A DNA stretch of 64,000 bases from Bacteroidota bacterium (GTDB lineage Bacteria > Bacteroidota > Bacteroidia > B-17B0 > Aurantibacillaceae), in contig JAJNDK010000001.1 in the NCBI GenBank assembly GCA_021156365.1, positions 682,001 to 746,000 on the forward strand, given 5' to 3'. Below the pieces are notes generated by a model. That model did no database searches and was not told where the DNA came from. It saw nothing but the letters and a program-made list of their open reading frames with translations. Made by a program: the position numbers and the translations under genes. Within the stretch, counting starts at the first letter, position 1; each line of letters starts with the position of its first letter. Below are positions 1,883-56,001 of this stretch, piece by piece.

Positions 1883-3244
1883 TTATAACCTGAATAACAC
1901 AGCGAAAATGATCCTGTCTTCCGCTTTCACGAGGTCGGGAACCCAGTTAGGTGTCAAAGGCGATGTACTATAACCAGTGGGCGATGTTACACCACCACGG
2001 CCTGCGAAATACGGAACATTGGATTGCCGGTGCACATACTCCAGCCGGAATGAAACATGTTCGTTCGGCAACCACTCCATATTGGCAGAATAATCAAAAC
2101 CTTCGAATGCATCTCCAGGTGAAGCACTGTAGGGAAATGATCCTTCCGGCACCGTCGGGTTATTCACATTCGGCAAGGGACTGGCCTGACCGGTTGGATA
2201 CAATACCAGGTACCTGCCCGGATTATTCATGTATCCTCCGCCCATGGTGCAGGCGAGCTTGTTCTTCGCAAACCAGATCCGGTTGTAGAACATTACACTT
2301 GCAAAGTACTGTGCCGGCCCACTGATGGAATCTCCGTTCTTAAAACCGTTCACGCCCCCGCCTTTTTCAAAACCCGCATCGGCAGTTAAGGAGAAAGCCA
2401 TTTTACTGATCCCTTTTGATTGTGGTTTGTTCAGATAACGGATCAATAAGCTGTTATCCGAATGAAAGCGTTTGCGCTTCGGGATCCCGGCTGCATCTGC
2501 TCCGTAATAATTATTCGTTAACAGTTTTATCCGTTCATTCGGTATCCAGGTAATGTTTCCGCCAAGGCCCGGCTGCTGATTGAACAGCCCGTAGCTTTGC
2601 CAGCCATTAATGATCCAGGGCTCTATCTTCAAATGTTTTGTCGGGTGTATCTGTATCCGGATACCATTGAAAAACCAGGGCGTGTTATCGGAAGTAAAAG
2701 AAGCCTGGTATTCCCAGTTCTCCACCTGGTAATAGGAGTTCAGCCCGAGATACGACATGAACATACCCGCATCCACGTTGATCCCGTACATTGTATTGAA
2801 ATGATACCCTGCATTTGCTTCCGCCAGGTAACGGTATGCATCAGCCAGCTTATACTGACCTTTGTAAGGGCTGTAATCATTTCTCGGTACCACGGTAGAG
2901 CGTGTTCCGAATTGCGTTACAATATGCGCCCTCGCGCCCTCGTAATAAAAATCACCGCCGAGGTGTGCCGCCGAAACCTGCATCTCATTGTTCCGGGCGA
3001 GCGCTGTCGATCCTATAACCGTATTATCGATCGGATTGTTGAAGGAGTGAGTAAAATTAGCATCCAGCATCACAACAGGTGTAAAATGCTTCCCCGGTAA
3101 AGTCGGGCTGCTGCGCCGGTCGCCTCCATTCAGCCAGCTCAGGTCCATTCCTTCAAAAGGTACTTTCACAGTCGGCAGGGAGTCTGTTTGCGCCGAAAGT
3201 GCAGTTACTCCGGCTGTGGCGATAATAAATAAAATTCTTTTCAT
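1883..3244 (-). CDS. OmpL-like outer-membrane beta-barrel porin (BBP2 type)
   Basis: Predicted outer-membrane porin. The frame is open up to 3346, but the start at 3244 is preferred because it gives a clean signal peptide (MKRILFIIATAGVTALSAQ). The mature part resembles the putative beta-barrel porin-2 (OmpL-like) family: alternating amphipathic strands, aromatic-rich turns, a segment MYGINVDAGMFMSYLGLNSY, then WIINGWQSYGLFNQQPGLGG, and a C-terminal strand ending in F-R-L (IIFAVLFRL), as in barrel proteins. Its length of 453 residues fits the family. Being directly upstream of a potassium transporter suggests it supplies the outer-membrane step for the same or a co-regulated solute, which is inference only. 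Confidence 0.85.
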   Translation of the reverse strand: MKRILFIIATAGVTALSAQTDSLPTVKVPFEGMDLSWLNGGDRRSSPTLPGKHFTPVVMLDANFTHSFNNPIDNTVIGSTALARNNEMQVSAAHLGGDFYYEGARAHIVTQFGTRSTVVPRNDYSPYKGQYKLADAYRYLAEANAGYHFNTMYGINVDAGMFMSYLGLNSYYQVENWEYQASFTSDNTPWFFNGIRIQIHPTKHLKIEPWIINGWQSYGLFNQQPGLGGNITWIPNERIKLLTNNYYGADAAGIPKRKRFHSDNSLLIRYLNKPQSKGISKMAFSLTADAGFEKGGGVNGFKNGDSISGPAQYFASVMFYNRIWFAKNKLACTMGGGYMNNPGRYLVLYPTGQASPLPNVNNPTVPEGSFPYSASPGDAFEGFDYSANMEWLPNEHVSFRLEYVHRQSNVPYFAGRGGVTSPTGYSTSPLTPNWVPDLVKAEDRIIFAVLFRL

Positions 3245-3697
3245 ACTGTTTATTCTTAATTTGATAAGTGCCTGTCTTTTTTTACCTGATAACCACCTTT
3301 TTTTATCCCTTGAAAGCTTTTCATTCAATGGCATTACGCAATCCACTGTCTGACAGCCTCCTCCGGGCTTTAGAAAAGCCGATACTCATTTTTCATAAGA
3401 CTTCAGCCTGGAATCCAAAGCCTGTTCCCTTTTGAGATAAACAAGTCGGAGTTTGCAACTGATTAGCTTTCAGTAAATTGCCAAAAAATACTTTTTGTAA
3501 CACCGTGTCGTATCCCTTCCGTTTTGGAAGGGTTTTTCATTTTGAAAAAACTATATTTTGAGAAAAAAACTTTGTTACCGGTACCAGCTGTAAAAATGGT
3601 TTTTTCTATATTTAAGGCGGTAATATGCTTAGGACGTATTATTATAGGTGAGCCGAAAACTATAGAACAGAGTAGGCAGGATACAATCTAAACAATC
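3245..3697. other. 453-bp divergent intergenic region
   Basis: The region separates the minus-strand porin operon from the plus-strand LipL32-like gene and must hold both promoters. No confident Bacteroidota -33/-7 promoter was found by eye; TATATTTT near 3549 is a partial -7 match without a well-spaced TTTG. It contains one strong plus-strand intrinsic terminator (3514-3537) that no annotated gene explains. No protein-coding frame is convincing. Confidence 0.5.
3514..3537 (+). terminator. orphan intrinsic terminator in intergenic region
   Basis: CCCTTCC (3514-3520), loop GTTTT, GGAAGGG (3526-3532), then five T's and a further T-rich stretch. This is a classic rho-independent terminator for plus-strand transcription. 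There is no plus-strand gene upstream within the intergenic region, so it may end a small RNA, or act as an attenuator in the leader of the LipL32-like gene, which starts 160 bp downstream. Confidence 0.6.
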
Positions 3698-4408
3698 ATG
3701 AAAAAATTAACAGGTACATTGGCAATCGTTCTTGCCGTAGCTTCTCTCAGCTTTATCGGCGGAGACGACAAGCTGGACAAATTCAAAGCTGACATGGGTA
3801 AACAAACCAAGTTAGGAAAAGAGATCCGCGTTCCATACACGGATGTATTAAGCTATTACGGATATGTAAAACCAGGTGGAGCTCCGGACGAAACAAGAGA
3901 TGGAAAAAAATACTATTACCTGTACATCTGGATCCCTGCTGTAGCGCCTGAGATCGGTATTCGTATGGCTTCTCCGGTTCCTTCGAAAATGACGCCTGAG
4001 AAAACGGATTTCGTTGCAGCTGATTACACAGCAAACAGCACCGATACCAAAAACTACTTTGATACCTGGATCACGCTTGAAAGAGCGGATGGTGTTACCA
4101 GCACAGCTGATATCGCTACAAAAGGTAAAACTGCAAAATGGAATTCGTACGGTTCCAATGATGACTCCAGCGAAATGCCGGCACAGCCATCAGGAAGCAA
4201 TTACAATTCTTTGATGCGCATCACCAGCGAAACCAGCAACCCACTGAAATCACTGGTAGTTGGTTTATACCGTGTTGGTTTCACCACTTACAAAACAGGT
4301 GAAGTTCAGGGAAGCTTTATTGCACAGGTTGGTGCTCCGGTAAAACTACCAGGAGTAGGTATGGCTAAAACAATTGATGAGCTGTCTGCACAGGTAGCTA
4401 AGAAATAA
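3698..4408 (+). CDS. LipL32-like secreted protein without lipobox
   Basis: A 236-residue exported protein. It has a short signal peptide (MKKLTGTLAIVLAVASLSF), but no cysteine at the expected lipobox, so it is probably a soluble or peripheral secreted protein. Blocks closely match my recollection of Leptospira LipL32: YYGYVKPGGAPDETRDGKK followed by YYLYIWIPAVAPEIGIRM, then FDTWITLERADG, YNSLMRI, and GLYRVGFTTYKTGEVQGSF. LipL32 is a calcium-binding, matrix-interacting protein; the acidic cluster used there is reduced here to NDDSSE. The gene stands alone, is followed by a strong terminator, and converges on the response regulator. The LipL32-family assignment is strong; the role in this organism is unknown. 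Confidence 0.88.
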   Translation: MKKLTGTLAIVLAVASLSFIGGDDKLDKFKADMGKQTKLGKEIRVPYTDVLSYYGYVKPGGAPDETRDGKKYYYLYIWIPAVAPEIGIRMASPVPSKMTPEKTDFVAADYTANSTDTKNYFDTWITLERADGVTSTADIATKGKTAKWNSYGSNDDSSEMPAQPSGSNYNSLMRITSETSNPLKSLVVGLYRVGFTTYKTGEVQGSFIAQVGAPVKLPGVGMAKTIDELSAQVAKK

Positions 4409-4427
4409 GCTGCATACTCAATTATAC

Positions 4428-4464
4428 AAAAAGCGCCGTTCATCAAAAATGAACGGCGCTTTTT
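4428..4464 (+). terminator. intrinsic terminator of the LipL32-like gene
   Basis: A perfect 16-bp stem (4428-4443 with 4449-4464), core GCGCCGTTCAT, with a 5-nt loop. The 3' arm ends in a T-run. It starts 19 bp after the stop codon. The A-run on the 5' side makes it potentially bidirectional. Confidence 0.9.
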
Positions 4465-4573
4465 GTTTTATCCCGTCATAGGGAAAGGTTGTGATTAATT
4501 TATCGGAATTATTTTCTTCCCTTAAGGAACTTCTTTTCTGCAAAGCAGAACCCGGAAATCCATGTTTTGGTTT

Positions 4574-4661
4574 CCCTCTCCCTGCGGGAGAGGGAGTGCG
4601 GCGGGATGTGTGTTGGCCAAAGGGTGAGGGCGTACAGTAGCCCCTTACGCCCTCACCCTTT
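4574..4661. repeat. pair of intergenic hairpins (REP-like)
   Basis: Two palindromes lie close together between convergent genes. The first is CCCTCTCCC-TGC-GGGAGAGGG (4574-4594). The second has perfect 16-bp arms AAAGGGTGAGGGCGTA (4619-4634) and its complement (4646-4661) around an 11-nt loop. Paired GC-rich palindromes in an otherwise AT-rich spacer are typical of dispersed REP/BIME elements. They could also act as a terminator for the response regulator gene, which ends at 4747. No second copy was found in this window. Confidence 0.6.
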
Positions 4662-4746
4662 TCGCACAGGCTTGCCTCTTCTGCCGGAATATAATTTCGT
4701 TAGTAAAATGATGAAAACAATCCGTTTTCTCAGCAGGATTCTACCC

Positions 4747-6093
4747 CTACTTCTCAATTCCGTACTCTTCCATCTTCCGGTAGAGAGTGGTCAGGCCGAT
4801 GCCTAACAATTCGGCGGCTCTCGTTTTATTTCCTTTGGCAAAGACCAGTATTTTTGCGATATGGATCTTTTCCATAGCTGTCAGGCTTGTATAGGAATGA
4901 TCTGCACGGGGTTCTTCATTGATGATCTCTACAGGAAGCAGGTCCACCGTCAGATTATTGGTGTCGGCGAGTATCGTCGCCCGCTCGATGCAGTTCTTCA
5001 GCTCGCGGATATTTCCTCTCCACTGATTTTTCTGAAGCGAAGCCAGAAAATCCCTTTCCATTCCGGTAATGCGTTTTTTCAATTTCACCGCATATACATT
5101 CATAAAGTGTTTTGCCAGTTCTTCGATATCCTCTTTCCGTTCCTTTAAAGAAGGGATTGTTATTTTGAATGCAGAAAGACGGTAATACAGATCGGAACGA
5201 AAATTCCCGTTCTCACTTTCTTTTTTCAGATCACGGTTGGTGGCTGCAATGATACGTACATTCACTTTTGTGGATTTGGTATCACCCACTTTAATGAAGC
5301 TTTGTGTTTCCAGCACACGCAGCAGCCTGGCCTGCAGCCCGGATTCCATTTCACCCATCTCATCCAGGAAGATCGTACCGTTGCTGGCCTCTTCAAACAA
5401 ACCTTTTTTATCCGCGAGGGCTCCGGTGAAAGCTCCTTTTTTGTGTCCGAACAATTCGCTTTCCAGCAAATCCCTGGCAAATGAGCTACAGTTAACAGCT
5501 ACAAACGAGTTGTTCCTTCGCGGACCTGCATAATGGATAGCCTGCGCAAACAGCTCCTTGCCCACTCCTGTTTCTCCTTCCAGCAACACAGTAGAATCGG
5601 TTGCCGCTACTTTTTTTGCAAGCGCTACTGTTTCACGAATGGGAGCTGATCCTCCGATGATAGTTTCGAAGCCATACCTGGCTTCCAGTTTATTCTCTAA
5701 TTCAAGTACCCGTTTTTTCAGGGCTATCTTTTCGCTGGCACGGCTCAGCGCAGGAATGATCTGCTCGTTGTCATCACCTTTCACAAAATAATCGGTCGCG
5801 CCCTGCTTCATTGCCTTTACGCCGTCGTGGATAGTGCCAAAAGCGGTCATTACAATACATTCACAAAGCGGGTTCACAGACCGGATCTTTTCAAGAATGT
5901 CGATCCCGTTCCCGTCGGGTAATTTTACATCTGTGAGTACAATGTCCGGTTTTTCCTGTTGCAGTATTTTCAATCCCTGTTGTATCGAAGCTGCCTCCGA
6001 CACGGCATATCCTTCCAGCGATATGATACGTGCCAGCAGCTGCCGGAACTTTTCCTCATCGTCAATGATCAGTATGCTCGTTTTTGGATTCAT
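4747..6093 (-). CDS. sigma-54-dependent response regulator, NtrC family (orphan)
   Basis: A 448-residue activator. The receiver domain (about 1-115) has the acidic pair in ILIIDDEE and a phosphoacceptor Asp near residue 55 (VLTDVKLPDG). The AAA+ sigma-54 interaction domain has Walker A GETGVGKE (about 173-180) and an intact GAFTGA loop (about 220-225). A Fis-type helix-turn-helix is at the C-terminus (TRAAELLGIGLTTLYRKM). The start at 6093 is the first ATG; the extension to 6102 would use TTG. The receiver's conserved lysine is followed by Gly instead of the usual Pro (FVKGDD). No kinase gene is adjacent. The divergent lipoprotein gene carries a near-consensus sigma-54 promoter and is its most likely target. 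Confidence 0.95.
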   Translation of the reverse strand: MNPKTSILIIDDEEKFRQLLARIISLEGYAVSEAASIQQGLKILQQEKPDIVLTDVKLPDGNGIDILEKIRSVNPLCECIVMTAFGTIHDGVKAMKQGATDYFVKGDDNEQIIPALSRASEKIALKKRVLELENKLEARYGFETIIGGSAPIRETVALAKKVAATDSTVLLEGETGVGKELFAQAIHYAGPRRNNSFVAVNCSSFARDLLESELFGHKKGAFTGALADKKGLFEEASNGTIFLDEMGEMESGLQARLLRVLETQSFIKVGDTKSTKVNVRIIAATNRDLKKESENGNFRSDLYYRLSAFKITIPSLKERKEDIEELAKHFMNVYAVKLKKRITGMERDFLASLQKNQWRGNIRELKNCIERATILADTNNLTVDLLPVEIINEEPRADHSYTSLTAMEKIHIAKILVFAKGNKTRAAELLGIGLTTLYRKMEEYGIEK

Positions 6094-6116
6094 CCGGAAC
6101 AAAGGTATACTTTTCC

Positions 6117-8337: not shown

Positions 8338-8610
8338 ATGGCGTCGGAATGTGATCTGGCATGGTTGGAACGTGAACTCGCATGGTCGGAACGTGAACCC
8401 GCATGGTCGGAGTGTGAACCAGCATGGTTGGAACGTGAACTCGCATGGTTGGAACGTGAACTCGCATGGTCGGAACGTGAACCAGCGTGGTTGGAGTGTG
8501 AACTAGCATGGTCGGAATGTGAACCCGCGTGGTCGGAACGTGAACCCGCGCGGTTGGAGAGTGAACCAGCATGGTCGGAACGTGAACCCGCGCGGTTGGA
8601 GAGTGAACTC
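8338..8610. repeat. 21-bp minisatellite, 13 units
   Basis: Twelve full 21-bp units run from 8359 to 8610, preceded by one diverged unit at 8338-8358. The shared core is TGGTYGGAACGTGAAC. Because 21 is divisible by 3, frames stay open on both strands. The plus frame from the ATG at 8338 reads as a heptad repeat AW(L/S)E(R/C)E(L/P) and stops at 8640. Variation affects all codon positions, so protein selection is not evident. It lies between divergent genes, upstream of the lipoprotein gene at 8715. Confidence 0.9.
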
Positions 8611-8714
8611 AGCCATTTTTGCAAAAAAACGGGGAAATAATTCCACGGGATCTTTCGGAAAAACAATGGATACAGCTGGCATGTTTTTATCATTTTAAGA
8701 ACAAAATCCGGCTT

Positions 8715-10428: not shown

Positions 10429-11838
10429 TTATTTTTCTCCTTTATACAAAGCCAGCACCTTGCTCCTGAGCGCATACTCATATTGCGAAGTGATCAGGTT
10501 GGCCTTCGATTTTTCGAAATTGGTCTTTGCCGTAATATAATCATACGTGGTGATCGCACCTTTCTCGAATTTTGCCGTAGCGATCCGGAACGACTCGGTA
10601 TAATCATTCACCTGCTCCTGTAATACTTTAGTACGCTCCGCAGAGCTCAACAGATCATTACACAGCTGTTCGATCACCGCTTTGTACCTTGTTTCCGTAT
10701 TTTTTTGCTGCGAGCGGGCCAGTTCATAATTGATCTTCGAATTGGCCACCTGCGTGCGTGTACGCAAACCATTGAACAGGGTTAACTGAACTCCCACTCC
10801 GACATAGGTATTGAGATTGTTTTTCAGCTGGTCGGTAAAGGAGATCTTTTCGCTGGTATATTCGTACTGCGGCTGAAAAACAAGATACGGCGTGGCTCCC
10901 ACCGTTATGTATGCATCTGTGGCAGCATCATACACATTCGCTACTTTCTGCGACGAAGCCGCACTGGAATAGTTGGTTCCTAAGCTCGCATTAAGATTCA
11001 CCGTAGGAAAAAGAAGACCACCTGCAGCATGCCATCCTTTCTTTGCACCCTGCCGGCGGTATTCTGCCGAGCGGATGGCCGGAAGTGTTTTACTCACTTC
11101 CGAAAATGTTTGCTGTGGTTCTGCTTTTACTTCCGCGATCTCTTTCACTCCCATGCCTTCGAATGTAGCTGCCGGCGAAAAAGTAACATTCATCAGCTGG
11201 CCAAGATTCAACTTCGCTGTTAAAAGAGATGCTTTGATATTGATCAGGTAGATCTTATCATTCGCTAACTGTCCTTTGGTGTCATACAACACCGAAGGAG
11301 AAACAGCATTATTCTTATCCAGCACGCTAAGGCGGTCGATCTGCGCCTGTGTAACTTCCATCTGCGATAGGGCCTGGTTCAGCAATTCCTGGTTCGTCAA
11401 TACCTGCATGTACGCAAGTGTCACCTGGATGCTGATATCGAGCTTTGCCTGTTCGAGATCCATCCGGCCGGCGTGATTGTTATACATGGATTGGCGGAAC
11501 GTATTGTAGTTATACAAACCACTGAACAATGTCAGGCTGCCATTCACTCCGTATTGCCCTGTCGTTACTTCCTGGTTAATAAATGTATTGGTGTAGGGAT
11601 TGATACTCTTACCTGTACTGATCCCCTGGTTGGCATAAGCAGAAACAGAAGGCAATGCAGCAGCGGCAGACTGCTGAAGCTGTACCGAGCTGCTTTTGGA
11701 TTGAAGCTCTGCAGTGATCACCGCAAGATTATTCTTCAATGCAATGTCGATACATTTCTGCAAAGTATAGGCTTCCGTATCCTGGGCATGGATAAAAGAA
11801 ACACACATCACCCCTAAAAAAACAAACAAATATTTCAT
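10429..11838 (-). CDS. TolC-family outer-membrane efflux protein
   Basis: A 469-residue outer-membrane factor. The signal peptide is MKYLFVFLGVMCVSFIHA, followed by the TolC-type start YTLQKCIDIALKNNLAVITA. Two long repeated alpha-helical hairpin regions, rich in Ala, Gln and Leu, flank beta-strand segments such as GVNGSLTLFSGLYNYN and VGVQLTLFNGLRTRTQV, the usual two-fold TolC pattern. It lies at the downstream end of the multi-permease cluster and is the natural outer-membrane channel for the MacA-like adaptor at 42484-43746. The 205-bp gap to the upstream ATPase holds an inverted repeat, so it may also have its own promoter. Confidence 0.93.
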   Translation of the reverse strand: MKYLFVFLGVMCVSFIHAQDTEAYTLQKCIDIALKNNLAVITAELQSKSSSVQLQQSAAAALPSVSAYANQGISTGKSINPYTNTFINQEVTTGQYGVNGSLTLFSGLYNYNTFRQSMYNNHAGRMDLEQAKLDISIQVTLAYMQVLTNQELLNQALSQMEVTQAQIDRLSVLDKNNAVSPSVLYDTKGQLANDKIYLINIKASLLTAKLNLGQLMNVTFSPAATFEGMGVKEIAEVKAEPQQTFSEVSKTLPAIRSAEYRRQGAKKGWHAAGGLLFPTVNLNASLGTNYSSAASSQKVANVYDAATDAYITVGATPYLVFQPQYEYTSEKISFTDQLKNNLNTYVGVGVQLTLFNGLRTRTQVANSKINYELARSQQKNTETRYKAVIEQLCNDLLSSAERTKVLQEQVNDYTESFRIATAKFEKGAITTYDYITAKTNFEKSKANLITSQYEYALRSKVLALYKGEK

Positions 11839-12043: not shown

Positions 12044-12712
12044 TTATTTATTCTCCATTCTTCCGTCCAGCAAATGAATAACGCGTGAACCATAGGCCGC
12101 ATTTTTTTCGGAATGTGTTACCTGTACGATCGTCACACCCTCGTCTGCATTCAGCTTTGTAAAGAGCTCCATGATCTCCTCTCCCTGTTTGGAATTGAGA
12201 TTACCCGTCGGCTCATCAGCCAGGATCAGTTTCGGACGGGAGATCAGCGCCCGTGCAATACCCACTAACTGCTGCTGTCCACCCGAAAGCTGGTTGGGGA
12301 ACAGATCTTTCTTTCCCACAAAATTAAAACGGTCCAGTATGTCCGATACCATGGCCTTGCGCTCCGAAGATTTAAAATCTTTGTACAAAAGCGGGGTTTC
12401 AATATTTTCGTACACCGTCAGCTCATCAATGAGATGATAAGCCTGGAACACAAAACCTACATTTTGTTTATAGATCTCCGAGCGTTGTTTTTCTTTCAGG
12501 TTCTTCACCGACTGTCCCATAAAATTGTATTCACCTTCATCAAACCCATCCAGCATCCCGATCAGGTTCAGTAAAGTGGACTTGCCGGATCCCGAAGGTC
12601 CCATAATGGAGACAAATTCTCCTTCATTGATGGTCAGATCAATGTCTTTGAGCAGGAAGATCCGATTCCCACCCTGGTTCACCCATTTAAAAATGTTCTT
12701 TAATTCTATCAT
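12044..12712 (-). CDS. ABC transporter ATPase, MacB/LolD type, divergent motifs (second ATPase)
   Basis: A 222-residue nucleotide-binding subunit. Walker [10 protein letters not shown] (38-46), Q-loop Gln90 ([13 protein letters not shown]), signature LSGGQ (142-146), Walker B LILADEP, and H-loop in [14 protein letters not shown] are all present. Two positions are unusual for this family: the Arg normally following LSGGQQQ is Leu149, and the D-loop reads NLNS where NLDS is expected. The first ATPase of the cluster (41710-42387) is canonical at both. It is placed after the last permease and before the TolC-like gene. It may pair with the first ATPase in an asymmetric dimer or serve only some of the permeases; both are inference. 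Confidence 0.93.
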
Positions 12713-41709: not shown

Positions 41710-42387
41710 TTATACTTTTAAATTTTGTGTTACAATTTGTCCATCCAGCATATTGATCACACGGTGAGTAAAACGCGCATCGTGTTCGGAGTGCGTTACC
41801 ATAATAATGGTTGTTCCTTTTTCGTTCAGGTCGGTCAGCAATTGCATTACCTCATTCCCGTTCCTCGAATCGAGATTACCGGTTGGCTCATCGGCAAGGA
41901 TCAGCTTCGGGTTATTCACTACGGCCCGTGCTACAGCTACACGCTGCTGTTGACCACCGGAAAGCTGTTGCGGGTAATGGTTGCGGCGATGTGCGATCTG
42001 GATCTTATCCAGCACTTCATCCACAATGCGTTTACGGTCGGCCGAGCCCACACCTGTATAGATCAGGGGAAGCTCTACGTTTTCGAAAACCGTGAGCTCG
42101 TCGATCAGGTTGAAGCTCTGGAATACAAAACCGATGTTCTGCTTGCGCAATTCAGCGCGCTTACGCTCATTGAATTTGGCTACTTCCGTTCCGTTGAACA
42201 TATAACTACCTGCATCCATATCATCGAGCAATCCGATAATATTCAGCAGCGTTGATTTACCGCAACCGGATGGCCCCATCATAGCTACGAATTCGCCTTC
42301 CTTGATTTCAAATGACACATTATTTAAAGCAACGGTTTCAATTTCTTCCGTTCTATAAATTTTTTCGAGATTGCTTACTTTTATCAT
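41710..42387 (-). CDS. ABC transporter ATPase, MacB/LolD type (first ATPase)
   Basis: A 225-residue nucleotide-binding subunit with all canonical motifs: Walker A GPSGCGKS (38-45), Q-loop Gln90 (VFQSFNLIDELTV), signature LSGGQQQRV (142-150), Walker B LILADEP with D166-E167, D-loop NLDS, and H-loop in MVTHSEHDARF. It powers FtsX-type permeases from the cytoplasm. It lies between the MacA-like adaptor (97-bp gap) and permease 1 (4-bp gap). Since twelve permeases share this and one other ATPase gene, it is probably a common engine for many permease complexes. Confidence 0.96.
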   Translation of the reverse strand: MIKVSNLEKIYRTEEIETVALNNVSFEIKEGEFVAMMGPSGCGKSTLLNIIGLLDDMDAGSYMFNGTEVAKFNERKRAELRKQNIGFVFQSFNLIDELTVFENVELPLIYTGVGSADRKRIVDEVLDKIQIAHRRNHYPQQLSGGQQQRVAVARAVVNNPKLILADEPTGNLDSRNGNEVMQLLTDLNEKGTTIIMVTHSEHDARFTHRVINMLDGQIVTQNLKV

Positions 42388-42483: not shown

Positions 42484-43746
42484 CTATTTTTTACTTTCCT
42501 TCAATATCAGTTCCTGCGAGTTCACATAATTATCGTAACCTGATGTGATCACTTTGTCTCCAGGTTTCAGTCCCTGCAATACTTCGTAATACTCCGGGTT
42601 CTGTCGTCCTAACTGTACATCGATGCGATAGGCAACCGAACCATCCTCGTTCAGCTTAAATACCCAGTTGCCACCGGTCTGCTGATAAAAACCGCCTTTG
42701 GCCAATAACAGGGCCTGCGTCTCATCACTCAGTGCAAGGCGGATCTGCAATGTTTGCCCGCGGCGGATGTCTTTCGGGATCTCTCCTTCAAACTTCATAT
42801 CTACCTGGAATTTTCCGTTCTTTACCTGCGAATACACTTTTTGAATGCTCATTTTATAATCTTTGCCGGAAAGTGTGAATTCTCCTTCCAGTCCCGGATA
42901 CACACGCGTAATATAATGCTCATCGATCTCCACACGGACTTTGAATCCTGTAATCACATCGATCTGTCCAAGACGTTCTCCTTTGTTTTTGTTCTGTCCG
43001 ATCTCTGCATCCAGTGAAGTAAGCTGCCCGTCAACAGGAGCACGCACAACGAGGTCTTCTACTTTTTTACGCATGATCCGTAATGCTTCCTGTGTACGTT
43101 TAAACGATTCTTTGGCCTGGTTAAATTCTTCTTTGCTGGAAACCGAATCCTGCCTCAGGATCTGGTCGGTCAGAATTTTCTTTTTCACTGCGTAGGTGTA
43201 ACTGTTCTCCGATTGTTTAAATTCCTGCAAGGAGATCGCTTTCGATTCATACAGCTGTTTGTTCAGATCATAAATACGCTTTGCTTCCTGGAACGCATTC
43301 TCTGCATCGGTTCCCTGGTTCAGCTTCATAATGGTATTTTGATTGGCCGCATTTTTCGAGATCTGCATTTGTGTAAGCAGGTTGAATACGGATGTTTCCT
43401 GGTTGGCCAGGCTCAGCTCCAGGTCTGTATTGGAAAGACGAAGAATAGGATCGCCTTTTTTCATCACGGCCCCGTCCTCTGCAAAGATCTCCTCCACTCT
43501 TCCACCTTCCACCGCATCGAGGTAGATAGTTGAAACCGGCAATATTACACCGTTTACGGGAATGAACTCTTTGAAAGGTCCCTTTTTTACTTCACTGATC
43601 GTGATCCGTTCGGTTTCCACATTTAGCTTCGATCCTCCCGAGTTATAATAAATACTTCCGCCGATCAATAACACGATGAGGGTGATCCCTGTCCAGGTCA
43701 GGATCTTTTTTGTTGTCCACTTCCTTTTTTGTATTACTCTGTCCAT
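42484..43746 (-). CDS. MacA-like periplasmic adaptor (HlyD/RND membrane-fusion family)
   Basis: A 420-residue membrane-fusion protein. An N-terminal anchor (ILTWTGITLIVLLIGGSIYY, about 14-33) is followed by a barrel-sandwich start (VNGVILPVSTIYLDAVEGGR), a long coiled-coil hairpin of about 110-225 rich in Gln, Lys and Glu, the return strand VRAPVDGQLTSLDAEIGQ, and a C-terminal domain with GGNWVFKLNEDGSVAYR and GLKPGDKVITSGYDNY. It joins the inner-membrane ABC permeases to the TolC-like channel. It is the first gene of the run and lies divergent from the two-component system, which probably controls it. No second adaptor is present for the twelve permeases. Confidence 0.94.
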   Translation of the reverse strand: MDRVIQKRKWTTKKILTWTGITLIVLLIGGSIYYNSGGSKLNVETERITISEVKKGPFKEFIPVNGVILPVSTIYLDAVEGGRVEEIFAEDGAVMKKGDPILRLSNTDLELSLANQETSVFNLLTQMQISKNAANQNTIMKLNQGTDAENAFQEAKRIYDLNKQLYESKAISLQEFKQSENSYTYAVKKKILTDQILRQDSVSSKEEFNQAKESFKRTQEALRIMRKKVEDLVVRAPVDGQLTSLDAEIGQNKNKGERLGQIDVITGFKVRVEIDEHYITRVYPGLEGEFTLSGKDYKMSIQKVYSQVKNGKFQVDMKFEGEIPKDIRRGQTLQIRLALSDETQALLLAKGGFYQQTGGNWVFKLNEDGSVAYRIDVQLGRQNPEYYEVLQGLKPGDKVITSGYDNYVNSQELILKESKK

Positions 43747-43998: not shown

Positions 43999-45351
43999 AT
44001 GGACCTGAAGAAAATTAAAGTACTGGTTGTTGATGATGATAAGGATGTGCTGACGGCAATGAGCCTGCTATTGAAAAAAGAAGTGGCAGAAGTAGTAACC
44101 GAAAAGAATCCGGAAAACCTGTTAACGCTCCTGAAGAAACATGCATTTGACCTCGTGTTGCTGGATATGAATTTTAATGCCTCCATCAATACCGGCAACG
44201 AAGGCATTTTCTGGCTGAAACGGATCAGGGAGCTGAAAACCGATGTAAGCGTGATCATGATCACTGCCTATGCTGATATCGACCTCGCAGTTCGTTCGTT
44301 AAAAGAAGGCGCTGCGGATTTTATTGTAAAGCCCTGGAACAATCAGAGCCTGATCGATTCCATTAAAGAAATACTGAAGAAAAAAGGAACGAATGAAAAA
44401 ACGGTCAGCAGCACCGATTATGAAAGCATTGGTATTATTGGCAAAAGCGAGGCAATGGAAGATATTTTCAACAAGATCGAAAAGATCGCTCCTACCGATG
44501 CCAACATCTTAATACTTGGAGAGAACGGGACCGGGAAAGACCTGATCGCAAAAGCCATTCATCAGAAATCGCTGCGCGGACAAAAACAATTTGTAAAAGT
44601 GGATGTAGGTGCGCTTACCGACAGCCTGTTCGAAAGTGAATTGTTCGGGCATAAAAAAGGGGCTTTCACAGATGCCCGCGAAGACCGGGAAGGAAGATTC
44701 GAAGCAGCCAATAACGGAACACTTTTCCTCGATGAGATCGGGAACATTGCTTTGCAGCAGCAGGCCAAACTCTTAACCGTATTGCAGAACCGGCAGGTGA
44801 CAAGACTTGGAAGCAATGTGCAAACAGCGATAAATATCCGGCTCATCTGTGCAACCAACGTACCGCTGAGCGAGCTTGCCAATGAAAATAAATTCAGGAA
44901 AGATCTGATCTACCGGATCAATACGGTAGAGATCTTTATTCCGCCGCTCCGTGCACGAAGAGAAGACGTACCTGTTCTGTCCACTCATTTTTTGAAATTT
45001 TACGGTGATAAATATTTCAAGACCAACCTCGAGCTGAGCCCAAAGGCTATGGATAAGCTGATCGAATATCATTATCCCGGCAATGTGCGGGAGCTGCAAT
45101 ATATCATTGAACGGGCAGTGATCATGGCCGATGCAGAGCTACTGCAACCCAACGACCTGCTCTTTTCACCTCTGGAAACAGGCAGCAAAGCCATCAGTGA
45201 AGAAGACAGTGAAACGAAATTAAGCGCTATCGAAAAACAAACCATCCTCCGGGTGATCGAAAAGAACAATGGGAATATTACCAAAGCGGCGAAGGAATTA
45301 GGCATTACCCGAACCGCATTATACCGCAGATTGAGCAAATATGAAATTTAA
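43999..45351 (+). CDS. sigma-54-type response regulator with GAFTDA loop
   Basis: A 450-residue NtrC-family regulator. The receiver has D56 as phosphoacceptor (LVLLDMNF), T89 and K111-P. The AAA+ domain has Walker A GENGTGKD (174-181) and Walker B TLFLDEIG. The C-terminal Fis-type helix-turn-helix is TKAAKELGITRTALYRRL. The loop that contacts sigma-54 reads GAFTDA (221-226), whereas the other regulator in this window has the standard GAFTGA. The gene overlaps the start of the kinase gene by 11 bp, so the two are translationally linked. It is divergent from the adaptor and multi-permease run and is its likely controller. Confidence 0.95.
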   Translation: MDLKKIKVLVVDDDKDVLTAMSLLLKKEVAEVVTEKNPENLLTLLKKHAFDLVLLDMNFNASINTGNEGIFWLKRIRELKTDVSVIMITAYADIDLAVRSLKEGAADFIVKPWNNQSLIDSIKEILKKKGTNEKTVSSTDYESIGIIGKSEAMEDIFNKIEKIAPTDANILILGENGTGKDLIAKAIHQKSLRGQKQFVKVDVGALTDSLFESELFGHKKGAFTDAREDREGRFEAANNGTLFLDEIGNIALQQQAKLLTVLQNRQVTRLGSNVQTAINIRLICATNVPLSELANENKFRKDLIYRINTVEIFIPPLRARREDVPVLSTHFLKFYGDKYFKTNLELSPKAMDKLIEYHYPGNVRELQYIIERAVIMADAELLQPNDLLFSPLETGSKAISEEDSETKLSAIEKQTILRVIEKNNGNITKAAKELGITRTALYRRLSKYEI

Positions 45352-46690
45352 ACGCATCGGACTCCAGATCTTTCTGCGGACCTTATTTATGTTCGCGGCG
45401 CTGCTCATTGCTTCCATTGCCTTTATAAAACAATGGTACTGGCTTGATTTCATTATGTTACCCGTTGTTGCCGGTTTATTTTATTCCTATTATGCCTTCT
45501 ATAAAAAAGCAAGCCTCGAAGTACAGCAGTTTGTGGAGTCGGTGCACTACCGCGATTTTACACGCTACTTCGAAGTAAAAAAAGCGCCGACCGAGCTGCA
45601 GCCGTTCCGCAGTGGTTTCAATGAGATCAATACCACTTTTAAAAGCATCAGCAAAGAAAAAGAAACCCAGTTCCTGCATTTGAAGAGTATCCTCGAAATT
45701 GTGGACACCGGGATTTTTTCCTACGAAATGAACACCGGTGAAGTATTGTGGATGAATGAATCCCTGAAAGCCCTGCTTCATATCCCCTACCTGAAAACAG
45801 TGCATTCGCTGGAGAAACGGAACGAACCCCTGTACCAGGAGATCATCCGGCTGTCGGCAGGACAAAAGGCAGTGACTACCATCAGCAAGGACAACAGTTC
45901 CTTTAAGGTTTTACTTTCGGCAACCATGTTCGAGAATGAAGGGCATACCTTTAAGCTGATCGCTTTTCAGAATATCAATGAAGCCCTGGACGAAGGAGAG
46001 TCAAAAGCCTGGCAGAAATTACTAAGTGTGATGACGCATGAGATCATGAACTCCGTGGCCCCAATTTCTTCGCTGGCAGAAACACTAAAAGGCAGGATCG
46101 CGGACACATCCCTGCATCCCGAAAATTACAAAGAAGCGCTGACGGATATTGAAACAGGTATTTCCACGATCAAAAAAAGAAGCGAGGGCCTGTTGAAGTT
46201 TACGGAAACCTACCGGAACCTGAGCAAGATCAACAAGATCAATCCATCAAAAGTACTGGTAATGGAATTGTTCGGGCATGTTCAGCAATTGATGCAGCCC
46301 AATATCGATAAACGCAATATTGACTTTGAGATCATCCTGAAAGACCCGATGCTAAGTGTGAATGTGGATTCCGGATTGATTGAACAGGTATTGATCAACC
46401 TCCTGCTGAATGCCATGGATGCAGTGAAAGAAAGTATTACTCCGAAGATCACAATGAACGCCGAAACCATAAACAACCGGGTGATCGTAAAAGTAAGTGA
46501 TAACGGTACGGGCATCGAAGCCGAGATCCTCGATAAAATATTCATTCCTTTTTTCAGCACTAAAAAAACCGGGAACGGAATTGGCCTGAGCCTTTGCAAA
46601 CAGGTAATGATGCTGCACAGAGGATATATCAGTGTGAAGTCAGTGCAGAACCAGGGTACTGTTTTTATACTGAGCTTCGAGCAGGAGTAA
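45341..46690 (+). CDS. sensor histidine kinase, partner of the adjacent regulator
   Basis: A 449-residue inner-membrane kinase. Two helices at about 10-30 and 34-54 enclose almost no periplasmic loop, so the sensed signal is probably within the membrane or cytoplasm. A HAMP-like linker and a PAS-like region (about 112-215, ILEIVDTGIFSYEMNTGEVL) follow. The phosphorylated histidine is H233 in MTHEIMNSVAPI. The ATPase domain has the N-box NLLLNAMDA, G1 DNGTGI, and G2 GNGIGLSL. A short-loop kinase beside an ABC exporter fits intramembrane sensing of envelope-active compounds, which is inference. It converges with the FG-GAP gene, 15 bp away. Confidence 0.95.
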   Translation: MKFKRIGLQIFLRTLFMFAALLIASIAFIKQWYWLDFIMLPVVAGLFYSYYAFYKKASLEVQQFVESVHYRDFTRYFEVKKAPTELQPFRSGFNEINTTFKSISKEKETQFLHLKSILEIVDTGIFSYEMNTGEVLWMNESLKALLHIPYLKTVHSLEKRNEPLYQEIIRLSAGQKAVTTISKDNSSFKVLLSATMFENEGHTFKLIAFQNINEALDEGESKAWQKLLSVMTHEIMNSVAPISSLAETLKGRIADTSLHPENYKEALTDIETGISTIKKRSEGLLKFTETYRNLSKINKINPSKVLVMELFGHVQQLMQPNIDKRNIDFEIILKDPMLSVNVDSGLIEQVLINLLLNAMDAVKESITPKITMNAETINNRVIVKVSDNGTGIEAEILDKIFIPFFSTKKTGNGIGLSLCKQVMMLHRGYISVKSVQNQGTVFILSFEQE

Positions 46691-46705: not shown

Positions 46706-48091
46706 CTACTCTTTCACTATTTTCTTCGAAAAAGAACCGTCTGTTGTTCTGATCAAATAAATACCAGAGTTTTCTGTACTCAGGTCTACCTCCGTATTTG
46801 TCTGCAGTACGGAAAAGGAACGTATCTTTTTCCCTTCCATGTTATATATTTCCACTTCACTTTTCTTTCCATCCGTATGGAGAGAAAAATGATCGCTGAA
46901 TGGGTTTGGTGAAACAGATGCTGATTGATCAGCAGATGCTCCCTGAAAGCCTGTGGCACAATTTGTATTATTCAATAGGACAGATATACTTCCACCAGAA
47001 CCTAAATTGACTATAGCTAAATCGGGTTGTAAATCGTTATTAAAATCTCCCTGCGTGATCCCGAGAGGAACCGTCTGAACCAGGAAAGCCACGCCGGTTG
47101 CAAAAGTGCCTGTGCCGCTTCCTATTAGTACACTCGCTGTGTTCTGCGCATTGTTTGGTACAGCAAGGTCAATGATCCCATCCGTATCAAAATCCGCTGA
47201 AGTGATCCCCATACAAACAGCGCCAACAGAACTTATATAATTTACAAACGGGTTGAAACTTCCGGTTCCCGTGCCCAATAAAACAGATACCTGCGGGAAA
47301 GCGAAATGAGCAGTTGCCACATCCATGTTCCCGTCTGCATTAAAATCGCCGCAGGTTATTTTCCGCACACTACCCGAAACATTGAAAGGCTGGGGAGCAG
47401 TAAAATTACCTGTTCCATCACCCAATAACAAGGAGATCGTATTGTTCCCTTCGTTCGTAGTAACAAGGTCCGAATCACCATCATTGTTGAAATCAGCAAC
47501 AACCACTCCAAACGGATTGCTTCCCGTTAGGAAACTTACCGTACCTGAAAAACCTCCGGTTCCATCGCCCAGCAACACGGTCACACTATCTGTATTGGAA
47601 TTTCCGGTGACGAGATCCATATTCGTGTCACCGTTGAAGTCACCGATAGCCAGCGCCCGGGGTCCTGAACCACAGGGAAAATCCACAGGGGGAGCAAAAC
47701 TCCCGGAACCTGCATTGAGCAAAACCGATAAGGAATTGCCCACGAAATTGGAAGTAATAATATCCTGCCTGGTATCTCCGTTCAGATCGGTTGCTACGAG
47801 GTCGATAGATCCATTGCCAGAAGCAAAACCTGTCGATACGGAAAAAACACCGGAAGCGGAACCGAAGAAAATTTCTACGATGCTTACTGTATCTGAACGG
47901 GTGAATGCAAGATCGGTGTTTCCATCTTCGTCAAGGTCGGCAGCTACCATCCCTCCGGGAGAAGAAGCAACCGTGTAATTTACTGCCGGGAGGAAGGAGA
48001 TAGTGCAGGTTTGGGAATAGATGACTCCACACACAAATATTAACGATAGTATCATTAATACTCTTTGAAAGAAATTATTTTTAATTTTCAT
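46706..48091 (-). CDS. FG-GAP/VCBS beta-propeller protein with type IX sorting domain
   Basis: A 461-residue secreted protein. A signal sequence (about 1-26, VLMILSLIFVCGVIYSQ) is followed by seven repeats with calcium-loop motifs: ADLDEDGNTDLA, TDLNGDTRQDII, GDFNGDTNMDLV, ADFNNDGDSDLV, GDFNADGNMDVA, ADFDTDGIIDLA and GDFNNDLQPDLA. Seven repeats suit a seven-bladed propeller. The C-terminal about 75 residues form a type A T9SS sorting domain (SVSPNPFSDHFSLHTDGKK to SFSKKIVKE). It starts 46 bp after the RHS gene on the same strand, so it is probably the last gene of that operon. Likely surface-exposed or secreted; the ligand is unknown. Confidence 0.92.
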   Translation of the reverse strand: MKIKNNFFQRVLMILSLIFVCGVIYSQTCTISFLPAVNYTVASSPGGMVAADLDEDGNTDLAFTRSDTVSIVEIFFGSASGVFSVSTGFASGNGSIDLVATDLNGDTRQDIITSNFVGNSLSVLLNAGSGSFAPPVDFPCGSGPRALAIGDFNGDTNMDLVTGNSNTDSVTVLLGDGTGGFSGTVSFLTGSNPFGVVVADFNNDGDSDLVTTNEGNNTISLLLGDGTGNFTAPQPFNVSGSVRKITCGDFNADGNMDVATAHFAFPQVSVLLGTGTGSFNPFVNYISSVGAVCMGITSADFDTDGIIDLAVPNNAQNTASVLIGSGTGTFATGVAFLVQTVPLGITQGDFNNDLQPDLAIVNLGSGGSISVLLNNTNCATGFQGASADQSASVSPNPFSDHFSLHTDGKKSEVEIYNMEGKKIRSFSVLQTNTEVDLSTENSGIYLIRTTDGSFSKKIVKE

Positions 48092-48137: not shown

Positions 48138-51100
48138 TTACGGTACAGGGATTGGTATTCGGATTGGTACCCGGATCGGCATTCGGAGACTTGGTGAATA
48201 AGCAGGCTGTGGACTTGTTGCAGGAATTGGGTAAGGCTCTGCTACAGGAATGCCTGTTGGTCCGGGCATCATAAAAGGATCCGGGTCGGGACACCCCTCA
48301 CCTCCGAACCTGCAATAGGGATCTGGTGGTATAGGCAGAGGAATCTCATTTTGTGGTCTTGGGTTGAATGAAAAGAAAGCCTCCCATATCGCAGTCGCTA
48401 ATGATACTTCGTCCGGTTCCTGAAGTACAGGTAGCGGTGAAGTGATATACGAAAGATTGCTGCCTGGAAGCGGGAGTGCTAAATCTATATCGAAGAGAGT
48501 TGGGTCAAGGCGTACTGATGGTAGCTGAAGCGGATCCACCTGATCGAGATACTCATTCGCTTCAGTTATATGATCCTTCTTAATTAATTCACAAAAAATT
48601 ACTTTCCTGATCACAAGTTTCTCCGGGTGAACACTAAAATACATTGCCTGAGCATACATATCAACCGGAGTGATTCCGAGTACAATTGCTTTAATAGGAG
48701 CTTCCAAATGAGTAAGACATGCCCTTTGAACTGCGATCCCTCTTCCATAGGCATCATTCCTAAACCACACCATGGATTGTCCCGCAGTTGCGGCTCCAAG
48801 TTCCCCCGATGCAATCATGGCTGCCTCCTGTGGATTATCCACACTATTTATTCCTGTAATACCTATACTTGCAGATGTGTTTGGTATCTCTTCTTCATCA
48901 CTGGTTAAATCCTTTGCGTCGATTATTTTTTTCGGATCCAATGGCGGCGGCTTTTTAAACCATCCTCTAATACCCTCCCACGCATCTCTAAGCTTCTCCC
49001 TTACCTTACCGCCAGATAATTCATCAACAGGTCCCTTTGGCCATCTGCCATCAGGATCAATATAACTGATCGGATTATTAAAAGCAAAATCATACGGGCT
49101 CTGCTCCGGAGACTTTTCTGCCAAAGGATCTACACTCAGCCACCTGCCCAAACGCGGATCATACATTCGTGCATCAAAGTTGTACGCATTTCCTTCGCCT
49201 AATAATTCATTGTCTTTTTCCTTACCATTAAATCCGAAACGATAGTCCTGGCTATTGTAATTCCTGCCCGGCTGTTGCATCCCAAAGGGATCGTAGTTGG
49301 AATAAGACTGGATCTGCGCTTTGAATCCAAGACTCAGGTTGTTCACATTCTCGGGCTGTTTCACATCATTGATCACCACCCGCACATTGTCGAGATGGTC
49401 TTTGAGCTCATACAGCTTTAATCCCATAGTCCGGGTAAATAAAACAGTATCCGGATTATAGGTGATAGTTACCGGGTTACCGGACACCAGTTTCTTCACC
49501 AGGATACTTTCCGTGCGCATGCCAATACGGGAACTGCCATACAGTGGAATTTCATCCAGTTTATAGAGAGTGCTGTCTGCCGAAATGGTTTTCTTGTAGG
49601 TAGCCATTAGTATACCGGAAGCATCGTACACATAAAAGGTTTGGCTGATTAGTGTTCCTCCGCCTGATGCACCCGTTACATCCCTTTTTATCACCCGGCG
49701 TCCCAATCCGTCGTAAATAAAATAAAGCCGATGATCGTTAACGGAGCCGGAAGGATTAAAAACAACCGAATCAATTTTATCATCTATATTCCAGTAAGTA
49801 GCACTGCTGTTCTGAAAATCATTGGTCAGGTTACCGGAAGCATCATACGAATAATTGGAAGTGGCTGTCTGGTTCTCCATATCATTGGTATAGACGCTTG
49901 TAGTACCGACTGCATCAGCCACCTTTTTCAGGCGATTGGTTCCCGTGTAGTAGGTGTAAGTAAGCTGATCCATGGACAAGGCTGCCAAAGCATAACCATT
50001 CCGTTTTTGCGTGAGGATATTTCCATTCGCATCATACGTATACTCGGTCAGGTAATCATTGCTGGTTGTATATTGGCCCGTAGCATAGGAATTGAAATTC
50101 GATTTTTTCAGTCGGCCAAGCAGATCATATTTATACGTGTATCCTGTCATTTGTTCGTATTGCAATCCGCCTTTCGGTGCAATATGGCTTACCTGTGTAG
50201 TTATATGACCGTTGAACAGATCCGTTCCGGCTAGGTAATACACATTTGTGGCATTGGCATTAAAAGGTGAATTGGTGCGCTTGAAATCATCGGTATAATA
50301 GGACAGCATCATACCAAACACATCAAGTGCAACTGTGGAGTTTGTCCCCGTATTTCCATCTCCGCCCGGATCGATCGTTTTATCCAATGCAGGATGATTA
50401 ACACCTTTTAAGCTTCCCCTGATCGTATGAATATAATCCAGTCCCTGTACTTTATCTTCACCTATCACCATCCGTTTCAGCGGTCCATGTTTATAATAAG
50501 AATAGCCCGCATCTTTTTCCCATAAAACACCATTTTTAGAAGTCTCCAGGCCAATCAGGCGGTTATCAGCGTCATATCCATACCGGTACATGAACTGGTC
50601 CGCTTTTTTCTCATTGTAGATCATTTTCAAAGGTTTTCTGCTCACAAGATCATATTCGTAAGCCATCGTGTTTTTTCCAAGCTCCGGCAGATCCTGCACC
50701 AACCATTCCACATTACCATGCAGGTCGTAACTGTAGTAGGTATAGGTCCGGTCTGTTGTTGTAGCAGCCGAACCGTCTTTATCCGTATACACATACGAGA
50801 CATTATTCAGCAGGTTGCGTTGTGGTTTGGAAGCCGAATAATTACCCGAAGCAGACGCCGCGTTGTATACAGTAAATGTTTTCTCTGTTCCAACAGATGG
50901 GAAGGACATGTTCTCTACATTCTGAGAGAAGGTGGAGGGGCTTAAGGTGCTTTTTCCCTTTTCAGTCGGGCGGGCCAGCTCGTCATACTTTATATAACTA
51001 TAAGAACTGGCTGCCAATTGACGCGCACTCTGGCTGAAACGGAGCTGTCCTGTTTTATTGTAATAAAAGCTAACTGTTCCCGCATCGGGTGTGGTTTTGC

Positions 51101-54100
51101 TGATACACTGTCCCAACGAATTATAAGTAAAATAAGTAGCCAATGTATGATTCGGATGTACCTGCCGTTGCTTCACACTCAGCAGCGAAGGATCAAGGAA
51201 AGCAACACCTGCAGGAGGAACAGTCCGTAACTGGTTACCGACGCGATCATAATAAGAAAGGACATAGTGATAATAATCCAGCTTGTAATTCAGTTTCAAT
51301 GAATCCAGACTGTTCATGTCGAGACAGACGTTCAGGTATTTCTGCCTGTATTGCTGAGCTGCTGCATCAATACAACTTTGCCGTTGCTGGTTAATGCTCT
51401 CAACAATGTATCCAAGAACTTCTTCTTCACAGGAAACAAATCGCACGGTATCCGAATTCTCATGGCCCATGTCAGGTTCCACCCATTTGAAGCAGACATC
51501 CAGGCATCCGTGTGCCTTGCAGATACTGTTGCAGATAAAAGGAGCCTCCCAGGCCGGCGTTACATAACGTAGTGTGCAGGTATTTTGCAGATAAAAATAA
51601 CAAGGGATGGTATTGCTTACGGAGACAGTTGTGGAAGGTGTGATACAACTGTGGGTGAAATCAGGATCGAACTCCATAATGGCATCGTACACATTGAAGC
51701 TGCTGATGCCAGGCCCGATCTGTAGTTTCATCTCATCCAGCTTTGCATTCAGGTAATCCACCAGCAGGATAGATTCATCCGTGTCGCCACTGACGCGATC
51801 GAAACCTGAAGCACAATCTCCATGTTCATCCCGCAGGCTCACTTCATACGGCCAGGTCATAGATTTTGTAAGTGCCAGGATCTCCGAAGGTGTGCCTGCC
51901 TGGTTGCCCTGAACAGTAAGATTGCATCCTTGTTTGCAGTTCTCCACCATTTGTTTTGCACTGCAGAAGATCTCCTCCATAGTAATGAGGGTTTGCTCCT
52001 GGTTGGGAGTACCTTCTCCGACAATCACATAGCGGTTGTCATTTCTATAGGCTGTTAAGAGCGATTGTACAAAGCCGTCATAATGTGCCTCGCAGACCGA
52101 ATTGCAATGGGTTTCCACTGTATCGACGTAGGATTGAACGTTTGTACTGCCGCCTGCATTCGTATTGAACGAACAATCATAGAGCTGTGTCCAGTGCCAG
52201 GTAGCTGTATCGGGATAAGGATAAGAAAGCGGCGCCACGCTGTTAATCGCATTTTTACAGGGAGTACTTACAATAGTGGATTTAAAATACGCATACGCAT
52301 GCGACAGATAGCCCGGGCTTGAATAGGATGTGGTGTTTTTGGTATTGCTTACCCCTCTGAGCTTCTTCCCGGCACAGGCCAGGAATTGTTCGAGGAGATC
52401 ATACGGTTTTCCTAACTGATCGTATTGCTGCCTCATCACTTTGAAGCCCTGCACAATACCGTTCCAGCAATTCCAAAGCTCCTGGCAATCATAGGGCGAA
52501 ACAGGATCGTCGATCATATTTGCTACCAGCGCATTGAATTTTCCTGTCGTGACAGAATCACCACTGGTCCACGGCGCCTGGAAATAATTTTTGATATTCG
52601 TGCCTAAAGCCAGATCAGGGTCGCTGCCCCAGCGGTCGATCAGCGCCTGTTCGAAATTGGAAGCGGAACAGGCAGGTGTATTGCAATTCAGGTGAGGAAT
52701 CAGGATAGTGCAGCAGGAAGTATTCAACACAAAATTGGTCTCTGTAGAATCCAGCGGGAGTTCCACATCCTGTTGCAAAAATGTATTCAGTCCGTTCAGA
52801 TCCTTTACATTCACATACTCCATGATCCGGTCGAAGTATACTCCAACGTCTCCATCTATCTGTGCAGTATATGCATTCACAGCTTCATCGAGATAACTGA
52901 TGCCGGTAGCAGGATTGGTATTGGCAGTGAAGATCCGCTTCTCTACCATATACGATCCCGGCGCAAGATTGGCATACTGGATATACGGATTAATCGAGCT
53001 GGCGGAAGCCGGACAGGTTCCGCGCGGAATGATCAACGAATCCTTTTTCGGGAATCCGGCCGCATCGGGCTCCAGGATATTCCTCAATATAAAATATACC
53101 TTGTAATCGCAGGTGGAACAATAGGTGCCGCAATCGGCTGTTATGCTCTTCGGTGTGATCTTATAATATACTTTAAGCGTAGTAGGGGTGGTAAAAGCCA
53201 CGGGTTTCGTAGTGATCATGCCGTTCGGAGCCAGGGGTATTGCATCCGTCAACAGGTCGTTGATCTCATACACTGCTCCGTGCGACTCGGTGAGTGTATC
53301 CAGCACAGCAGTGTTGGTGCCGGCGGAAAGACAGGTGGCAATGCTCTGCCCTTCCTTGTTTACATACCGAATGGCGGCTGTATTGTTCTCATCGATATCG
53401 ATCACTTTGTGGACCGTGTTTGCCTTAGGCGCTTCATCGCCGAATACACGCAGCAACTCTTCTTCCGAAACACCCGAATAGAATTGTTTCTTTGTATGGG
53501 ATGTTTCATTCGGGTTGGAAAGTATGCGATGCACATAGCCCTGCGATCCAAACTCTGCATTTCTGTTAGTTCCGTCCTTGCTGTAAAGAGTGCGGGAATA
53601 CGGATAGCCTTCTGCATTCGGGATCGTGAGATCACCTCCGGGTGTATTGTCCGAATAATAATTCGCAAGCAAGCCGGCCGCCATCGGATTTGGCTTTTTA
53701 TAATTCGTATCCTGGTCGAAGTGAGTGGCCCCATACAACACACCACCTGAACGCTGTGCGAATTGCTCTACATAATCAAAATAGCTCTGCTGAACCGGAG
53801 CGGCCATTGTCGTCATCGCAGGTCGTCCCGAAAAATCATAGATCGTCTGGCCGGTCAGTATGGTTTTGTCGGTCGATAAAAGTGATTGCGTTTGTTTGCT
53901 TTGCAGTAAGCCATTGGCATAGGTCATCGTCTCTTTGATCTTCACACCGGTTTTTCCTTCATCGCCTTCCGCAAAAAAACGCGAATAGATCCAGTTCAGG
54001 TCTTTATCAAACTGATTGTAAAAGAAACAATACGGAGAGATCCCTGCACTTACATTTACGACCGCATTCTGCACGAAAGCTCCTGTAGAAGTAAAAGCGC

Positions 54101-56000: not shown

Positions 56001-56001
56001 A

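Follow-up and report, generated by a model that had tools for sequence, protein, structure and literature searches.

In the leptospirosis bacterium, LipL32 is more abundant than any other protein. Its calcium ligands are Asp132, Thr133, Asp164, Asp165 and Tyr178 (PMC5566480), and the protein is protease-protected in intact Leptospira, where immunofluorescence also places it below the surface (PMC3544172). In Pseudoalteromonas tunicata, a mutant of the related gene ptlL32 shows reduced extracellular matrix (ECM) binding and reduced colonisation of algae (PMC4080168). The same study, Gardiner et al. 2014, already listed orthologues from Cellulophaga, Formosa and Ulvibacter; it treats the family as lipoproteins, and the words lipobox and signal peptide are absent from the paper (PMC4080168). 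A literature search by the accession of the Pfam family, PF12103, returned no match. Here we describe a member of this family encoded in a window of 64,000 nucleotides, the whole stretch of DNA analysed, from a Bacteroidota genome (contig JAJNDK010000001.1, assembly GCA_021156365.1), following up an earlier note that had been made from the sequence.

A LipL32-family gene in a Bacteroidota genome

The open reading frame at 3698-4408 on the forward strand begins with ATG and encodes a LipL32-family protein of 236 residues, which matches PF12103 over the entire profile (positions 1-179 of 179) with 259.5 bits and an E value of 1.7e-77, the curated cut-off being 25 bits. When searched with phmmer against the LipL32 crystal sequences, the protein matched three chains at an E value of ~2e-35, and the alignments contain the YYGYVKPG..APD and FTTYK.GEV.GSF blocks from which the earlier note had recognised the homology. 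Core identity to the LipL32 of L. interrogans is ~48%. The score on the LipL32 equivalog model NF038394 was 135.5 bits, under the cut-off of 300, and the protein thus belongs to PF12103 but lies outside the LipL32 equivalog. A genome-wide profile search found no second copy in the 5.3-Mb genome. A spurious or chance reading frame is ruled out by the E value and by conservation, and a contaminant contig by the flanking genes, which have 73-80% identical orthologues in family relatives, as well as by the GC content of the gene (44.4%, compared with 44.0% for the window). The Bacteroidota host is likewise supported.

Fold and calcium site

An AlphaFold2 model built from an alignment of 54 family members reached a mean pLDDT of 89.3 and a pTM of 0.84. 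In a Foldseek search of the PDB, the best match was calcium-bound LipL32 (2wfk_C; E value 4.4e-20, TM score 0.71, 38% identity), and no fold other than that of LipL32 chains was found below an E value of 1e-3. Viral jelly rolls, lectins and other potential fold relatives appeared only at E values of 0.01 or higher and were ruled out. The jelly-roll fold expected from the sequence was thus borne out by the model.

All five published LipL32 ligands have counterparts in the alignment, which compares residues only. These are D122-T123 (4061-4066, forward strand; D132-T133 of LipL32), D155-D156 (4160-4165, forward strand; D164-D165), located within the motif NDDSSEMP, and Y169 (4202-4204, forward strand; Y178). 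Across the family, the counterparts of D132, D164 and D165 are present in 54 of 54 members, and those of T133 and Y178 in 52 of 54. The poly-Asp run of LipL32 (residues 161-168) is absent from the window protein, and the NDDSSEMP found in its place conforms to the loop that is the norm in the family, NDDS[SG]E[ML]PxxP. Acidic loops of the DDD(D)GDD type are confined to the branch comprising Leptospira LipL32, L056 and the Pseudoalteromonas copy L039, apart from one diverged paralogue outside this branch that also has DDD. The description of a reduced acidic calcium cluster therefore holds for the DDDDDGDD run, which is replaced, but not for the ligands, which are all kept. Judging from the alignment, the calcium site is conserved, and the long Asp run is an elaboration on the Leptospira side, the opposite of a reduction in the window protein.

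Signal sequence and lipidation across the family

The predicted signal sequence MKKLTGTLAIVLAVASLSFIGG (3698-3763, forward strand) is supported by the sequence itself, by the aligned AxA-QKLDKF sites of relatives and by low pLDDT, which covers residues 1-4 and 10-21 of the model. By comparison with the AxA/QKLDKF sites, signal peptidase I probably cleaves before DDKLDKF. The cleavage in the window protein is less certain than in the relatives because the signal ends in FIGG followed by DD, whereas nearly all relatives have AxA followed by Q. There is no cysteine in the N-terminal region, hence no lipobox and no equivalent of the lipidated Cys20 of LipL32. Both the signal sequence and the missing lipobox were thus correctly noticed at the outset.

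The absence of a lipobox is, however, not a peculiarity of this copy, as had been suggested, but the rule in its clade. When every N-terminus was read by eye and with a simple pattern, a lipobox at the signal end was found in none of the 42 Bacteroidota and Ignavibacteriota rows of the tree; the signal ends in these copies are of the signal-peptidase-I type, nearly always AxA/QK. In a few of these copies, a cysteine lies within the hydrophobic core, and L024 (IVAC) may, by eye, carry a lipobox. A lipobox was present in 5 of 7 spirochaete genomes and 3 of 5 gammaproteobacterial genomes. Well-supported branches (100/99) divide the unrooted maximum-likelihood tree into two sides. On that of Leptospira LipL32 and the gammaproteobacteria, 7 of 9 copies have a lipobox; on the other, which holds Bacteroidota, Ignavibacteriota and some spirochaetes, 44 of 46 lack it. 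The lipobox state changes at least four times on this tree, three of the changes being forced by well-supported branches; since the tree is unrooted, it is silent on gain versus loss of lipidation. We conclude that the window encodes a genuine LipL32-family protein that carries no lipid anchor and is in this a typical representative of the Bacteroidota clade.

Distribution and descent

The distribution of the family is sporadic. PF12103 was carried by a single genome, that of the window, among 395 sampled from the phylum, by 3 of 87 genomes of the window's own family, by 12 of 299 of the family of Flavobacterium, by 7 of 345 in the spirochaete sample and by 5 of 247 in one gammaproteobacterial family. 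A scan of species genomes yielded 37 loci, mostly from Bacteroidota and Ignavibacteria metagenome-assembled genomes (MAGs); the others came from isolates of Flavobacterium agri and F. stagni, from a spirochaete MAG and from a Pseudoalteromonas. The earlier view that homologues are known mainly from Leptospira and gammaproteobacteria therefore does not stand: Bacteroidota orthologues were listed in 2014 (PMC4080168), and dozens more were found here. The spirochaete MAG G481 carries two adjacent PF12103 genes (L097 and L037), one typical with 239 bits and one highly diverged with 81 bits, both without a lipobox.

The window copy lies on the Bacteroidota side of the tree, where it groups with a same-genus copy (99/94), the deeper forks being poorly supported. 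Given this grouping, transfer into the genus from outside the phylum is not supported. Carriage on plasmids was also rejected, with 0 matches among 72,556 plasmids.

Locus history

The gene lies exactly between a BBP2 (OmpL-like) putative beta-barrel porin (1883-3346, reverse strand; PF07642, 132.5 bits) and an NtrC-type sigma-54 response regulator with Response_reg, Sigma54_activat and HTH_8 domains (4747-6102, reverse strand). In relatives, the orthologues of both stand beside kdpABC, those of the porin being 76-79% identical and next to kdpC, those of the regulator 73-76%. In two family relatives without the LipL32-like gene (G471 and G443), regulator and porin bracket a small gene and kdpABC; in G443, a kup-type gene adjoins the porin. 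In the window, kdpABC is absent from 1883-6102, as seen from the gene order compared with the relatives' loci (L164 and L165), and no KdpB scored above the cut-off in the window's genome, the assembly of which is 98.7% complete. The same-genus genome G441 has kdpB, and there the regulator separates the LipL32-like gene from the side that it occupies in the window. Because relatives carry kdpABC between the same flanks and G441 keeps kdpB, kdpABC must have been lost in the window's genome, the LipL32-like gene now occupying the interval. No constant companion of the LipL32-like gene was found across the loci compared.

Codon usage and transcription unit

Measured against the genome's own ribosomal proteins, the codon adaptation index (CAI) of the gene is 0.740; the 25 ribosomal proteins themselves reach 0.721, and the background of 92 ORFs lies at 0.557 +/- 0.053. 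The gene ranks second of 93 ORFs, one being higher. Among homologues, 16 of 17 values (16 genomes) exceeded the background of their own genome, with z from -0.2 to 3.5 and a median of 1.6; note that the 17 values are non-independent and the backgrounds small samples. In some homologues, from Ignavibacteria, two Flavobacteriaceae and one spirochaete, codon bias is slight or absent. The bias seen in the gene and in most homologues fits an abundant product, and in Leptospira LipL32 is one.

Directly 3' of the stop codon, an intrinsic terminator-like hairpin with a T run (4421-4471, forward strand; inverted repeat with 23-nt arms, 91%) was identified, and a comparable hairpin stands after the copy of a same-genus genome. 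The leader and putative promoter region (3576-3697, forward strand) is partly conserved with the same-genus copy L095, for example in AGCCGAAAACTATA and AGAGTAGGCA. The gene thus reads as a single-gene unit with its own putative terminator. The ribosomal-protein-level codon usage, this single-gene unit and the position at the relatives' kdpABC site are new here. Between the LipL32-like gene and the regulator, at 4619-4661, there is a perfect 16-bp inverted repeat (AAAGGGTGAGGGCGTA), possibly a dispersed repeat.

Other features of the window

Twelve consecutive MacB/FtsX-type ABC permease genes of ~800 aa occupy 12726-41705 on the reverse strand, bracketed by two ABC ATPases (12044-12712 and 41710-42387) and, further out, by an outer-membrane efflux protein on one side (10429-11838) and an HlyD-like fusion protein (42484-43746) with an NtrC regulator/kinase pair (43999-46690) on the other. 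Within this array, Pfam was checked for three of the permeases, one of the ATPases, the HlyD-like protein and the efflux protein. A 21-bp tandem repeat of about 12 copies with a 63-bp higher order (8343-8613) is open on both strands, as NHAGSRSDHA-like or AWSEREP-like peptide repeats. Two giant ORFs of 2620 and 1990 aa (48138-61974, reverse strand) look RHS/YD-repeat-like by eye.

Location and proposed role

No type IX secretion (T9SS) sorting domain, either TIGR04183 or of Pfam, was detected on the window protein at E values up to 1; TIGR04183 is present on an FG-GAP-like protein in the same window (46706-48091). With neither a lipid anchor nor a T9SS tail, the periplasm is the simplest inference for the location, in agreement with the subsurface data on LipL32 (PMC3544172). 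The proposal that the protein is secreted was accordingly right in that the signal sequence predicts export, but periplasmic is the better reading. We consider it reasonably likely that this LipL32-family protein is soluble, binds calcium and is abundant in the periplasm. Sec would export the protein, signal peptidase I would remove about 22 residues, and the mature part would fold in the periplasm into a calcium-stabilised jelly roll; soluble, non-lipidated and devoid of anchor or T9SS tail, it would stay there. Large amounts would be made from its own single-gene transcription unit. It would most likely serve as an abundant calcium-binding envelope protein, with either a structural role or a calcium-dependent affinity for some part of the envelope, for which peptidoglycan, glycans and outer-membrane proteins are candidates. 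Against this reading count the weak or missing codon bias of some homologues, the less certain cleavage after FIGG, the want of a conserved gene partner indicating a substrate, and the ptlL32 mutant phenotype, from which a role at the surface seems likely for the P. tunicata lineage at least.

That phenotype, together with ECM binding by PtlL32 (PMC4080168), also speaks for a secreted or surface adhesin, as proposed for LipL32 and PtlL32, which would reach the outside via vesicles or another route and need calcium to bind host matrix or algal glycans; furthermore, the C-terminal half, to which ECM binding by LipL32 is reported to map, is well conserved. We nevertheless regard an adhesin as unlikely, given that the window protein has neither lipid anchor nor T9SS tail, that several carriers come from groundwater, fen, soil and pond (according to record titles) with no obvious host, and that LipL32 itself is reported to be subsurface in Leptospira, the LipL32 mutant of which still binds ECM (PMC3544172).

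Less likely still is an inner-membrane protein facing the periplasm, with the uncleaved signal as its anchor. The signals of the window and same-genus copies do end in [IV]GG/DD, with no AxA directly before the mature part, but at the aligned position a canonical AxA/Q is seen in nearly every other copy from Bacteroidota, and signal peptidase I tolerates I or V at -3 and G at -1. Control of a signalling-linked envelope protein by a neighbouring two-component system is very improbable: at 13 loci a gene for a histidine kinase or a response regulator is no more than three genes away, corresponding to ~9 of ~42 independent loci versus 7% of control genes, but because the systems are non-orthologous (NtrC-, LytTR- and LuxR-type) and the detection models were trained on the same hits, we treat this enrichment as unproven and suggestive only, and the window's NtrC regulator is explained as part of a kdp locus present in relatives without the LipL32-like gene.

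The lack of a lipid anchor, shared with the Bacteroidota relatives, the retained calcium site and the signs of strong expression hint that much of the LipL32 family consists of free calcium-binding proteins within the cell envelope rather than surface lipoproteins. More tentatively, lipidation might be a lineage-specific add-on to a widespread form that is soluble, abundant, calcium-binding and periplasmic in environmental Bacteroidota and Ignavibacteriota, in which case LipL32 would primarily serve Leptospira in an envelope function that it inherited, and not in adhesion to the host. The anchor-less clade, with the same fold and calcium site, includes tractable non-pathogenic hosts such as Flavobacterium agri MAH-1 and F. 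stagni WWJ-16, which allow what the family basically does to be studied apart from infection.

Comparison with known systems

The closest described system is LipL32 of L. interrogans (PDB 2wfk, 2zz8 and 3frl; NF038394), with which the window protein has in common the fold, a full-length PF12103 match and the same calcium ligands. Both also look abundant, LipL32 from measurements by others and the window protein by prediction from codon usage. The window protein differs in the missing lipidated cysteine, in NDDSSEMP where LipL32 has the DDDDDGDD run and in the absence of the ~10-residue insert that precedes the GLYR block of LipL32. PtlL32 of P. tunicata and its gammaproteobacterial relatives (PMC4080168) are, as here, patchily distributed PF12103 proteins outside Leptospira, but belong to the other, mostly lipobox-bearing clade. 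The Bacteroidota orthologues of Gardiner et al. 2014 (Cellulophaga, Formosa and Ulvibacter) share both phylum and protein family with the window protein and, unlike its host, are from marine flavobacteria.
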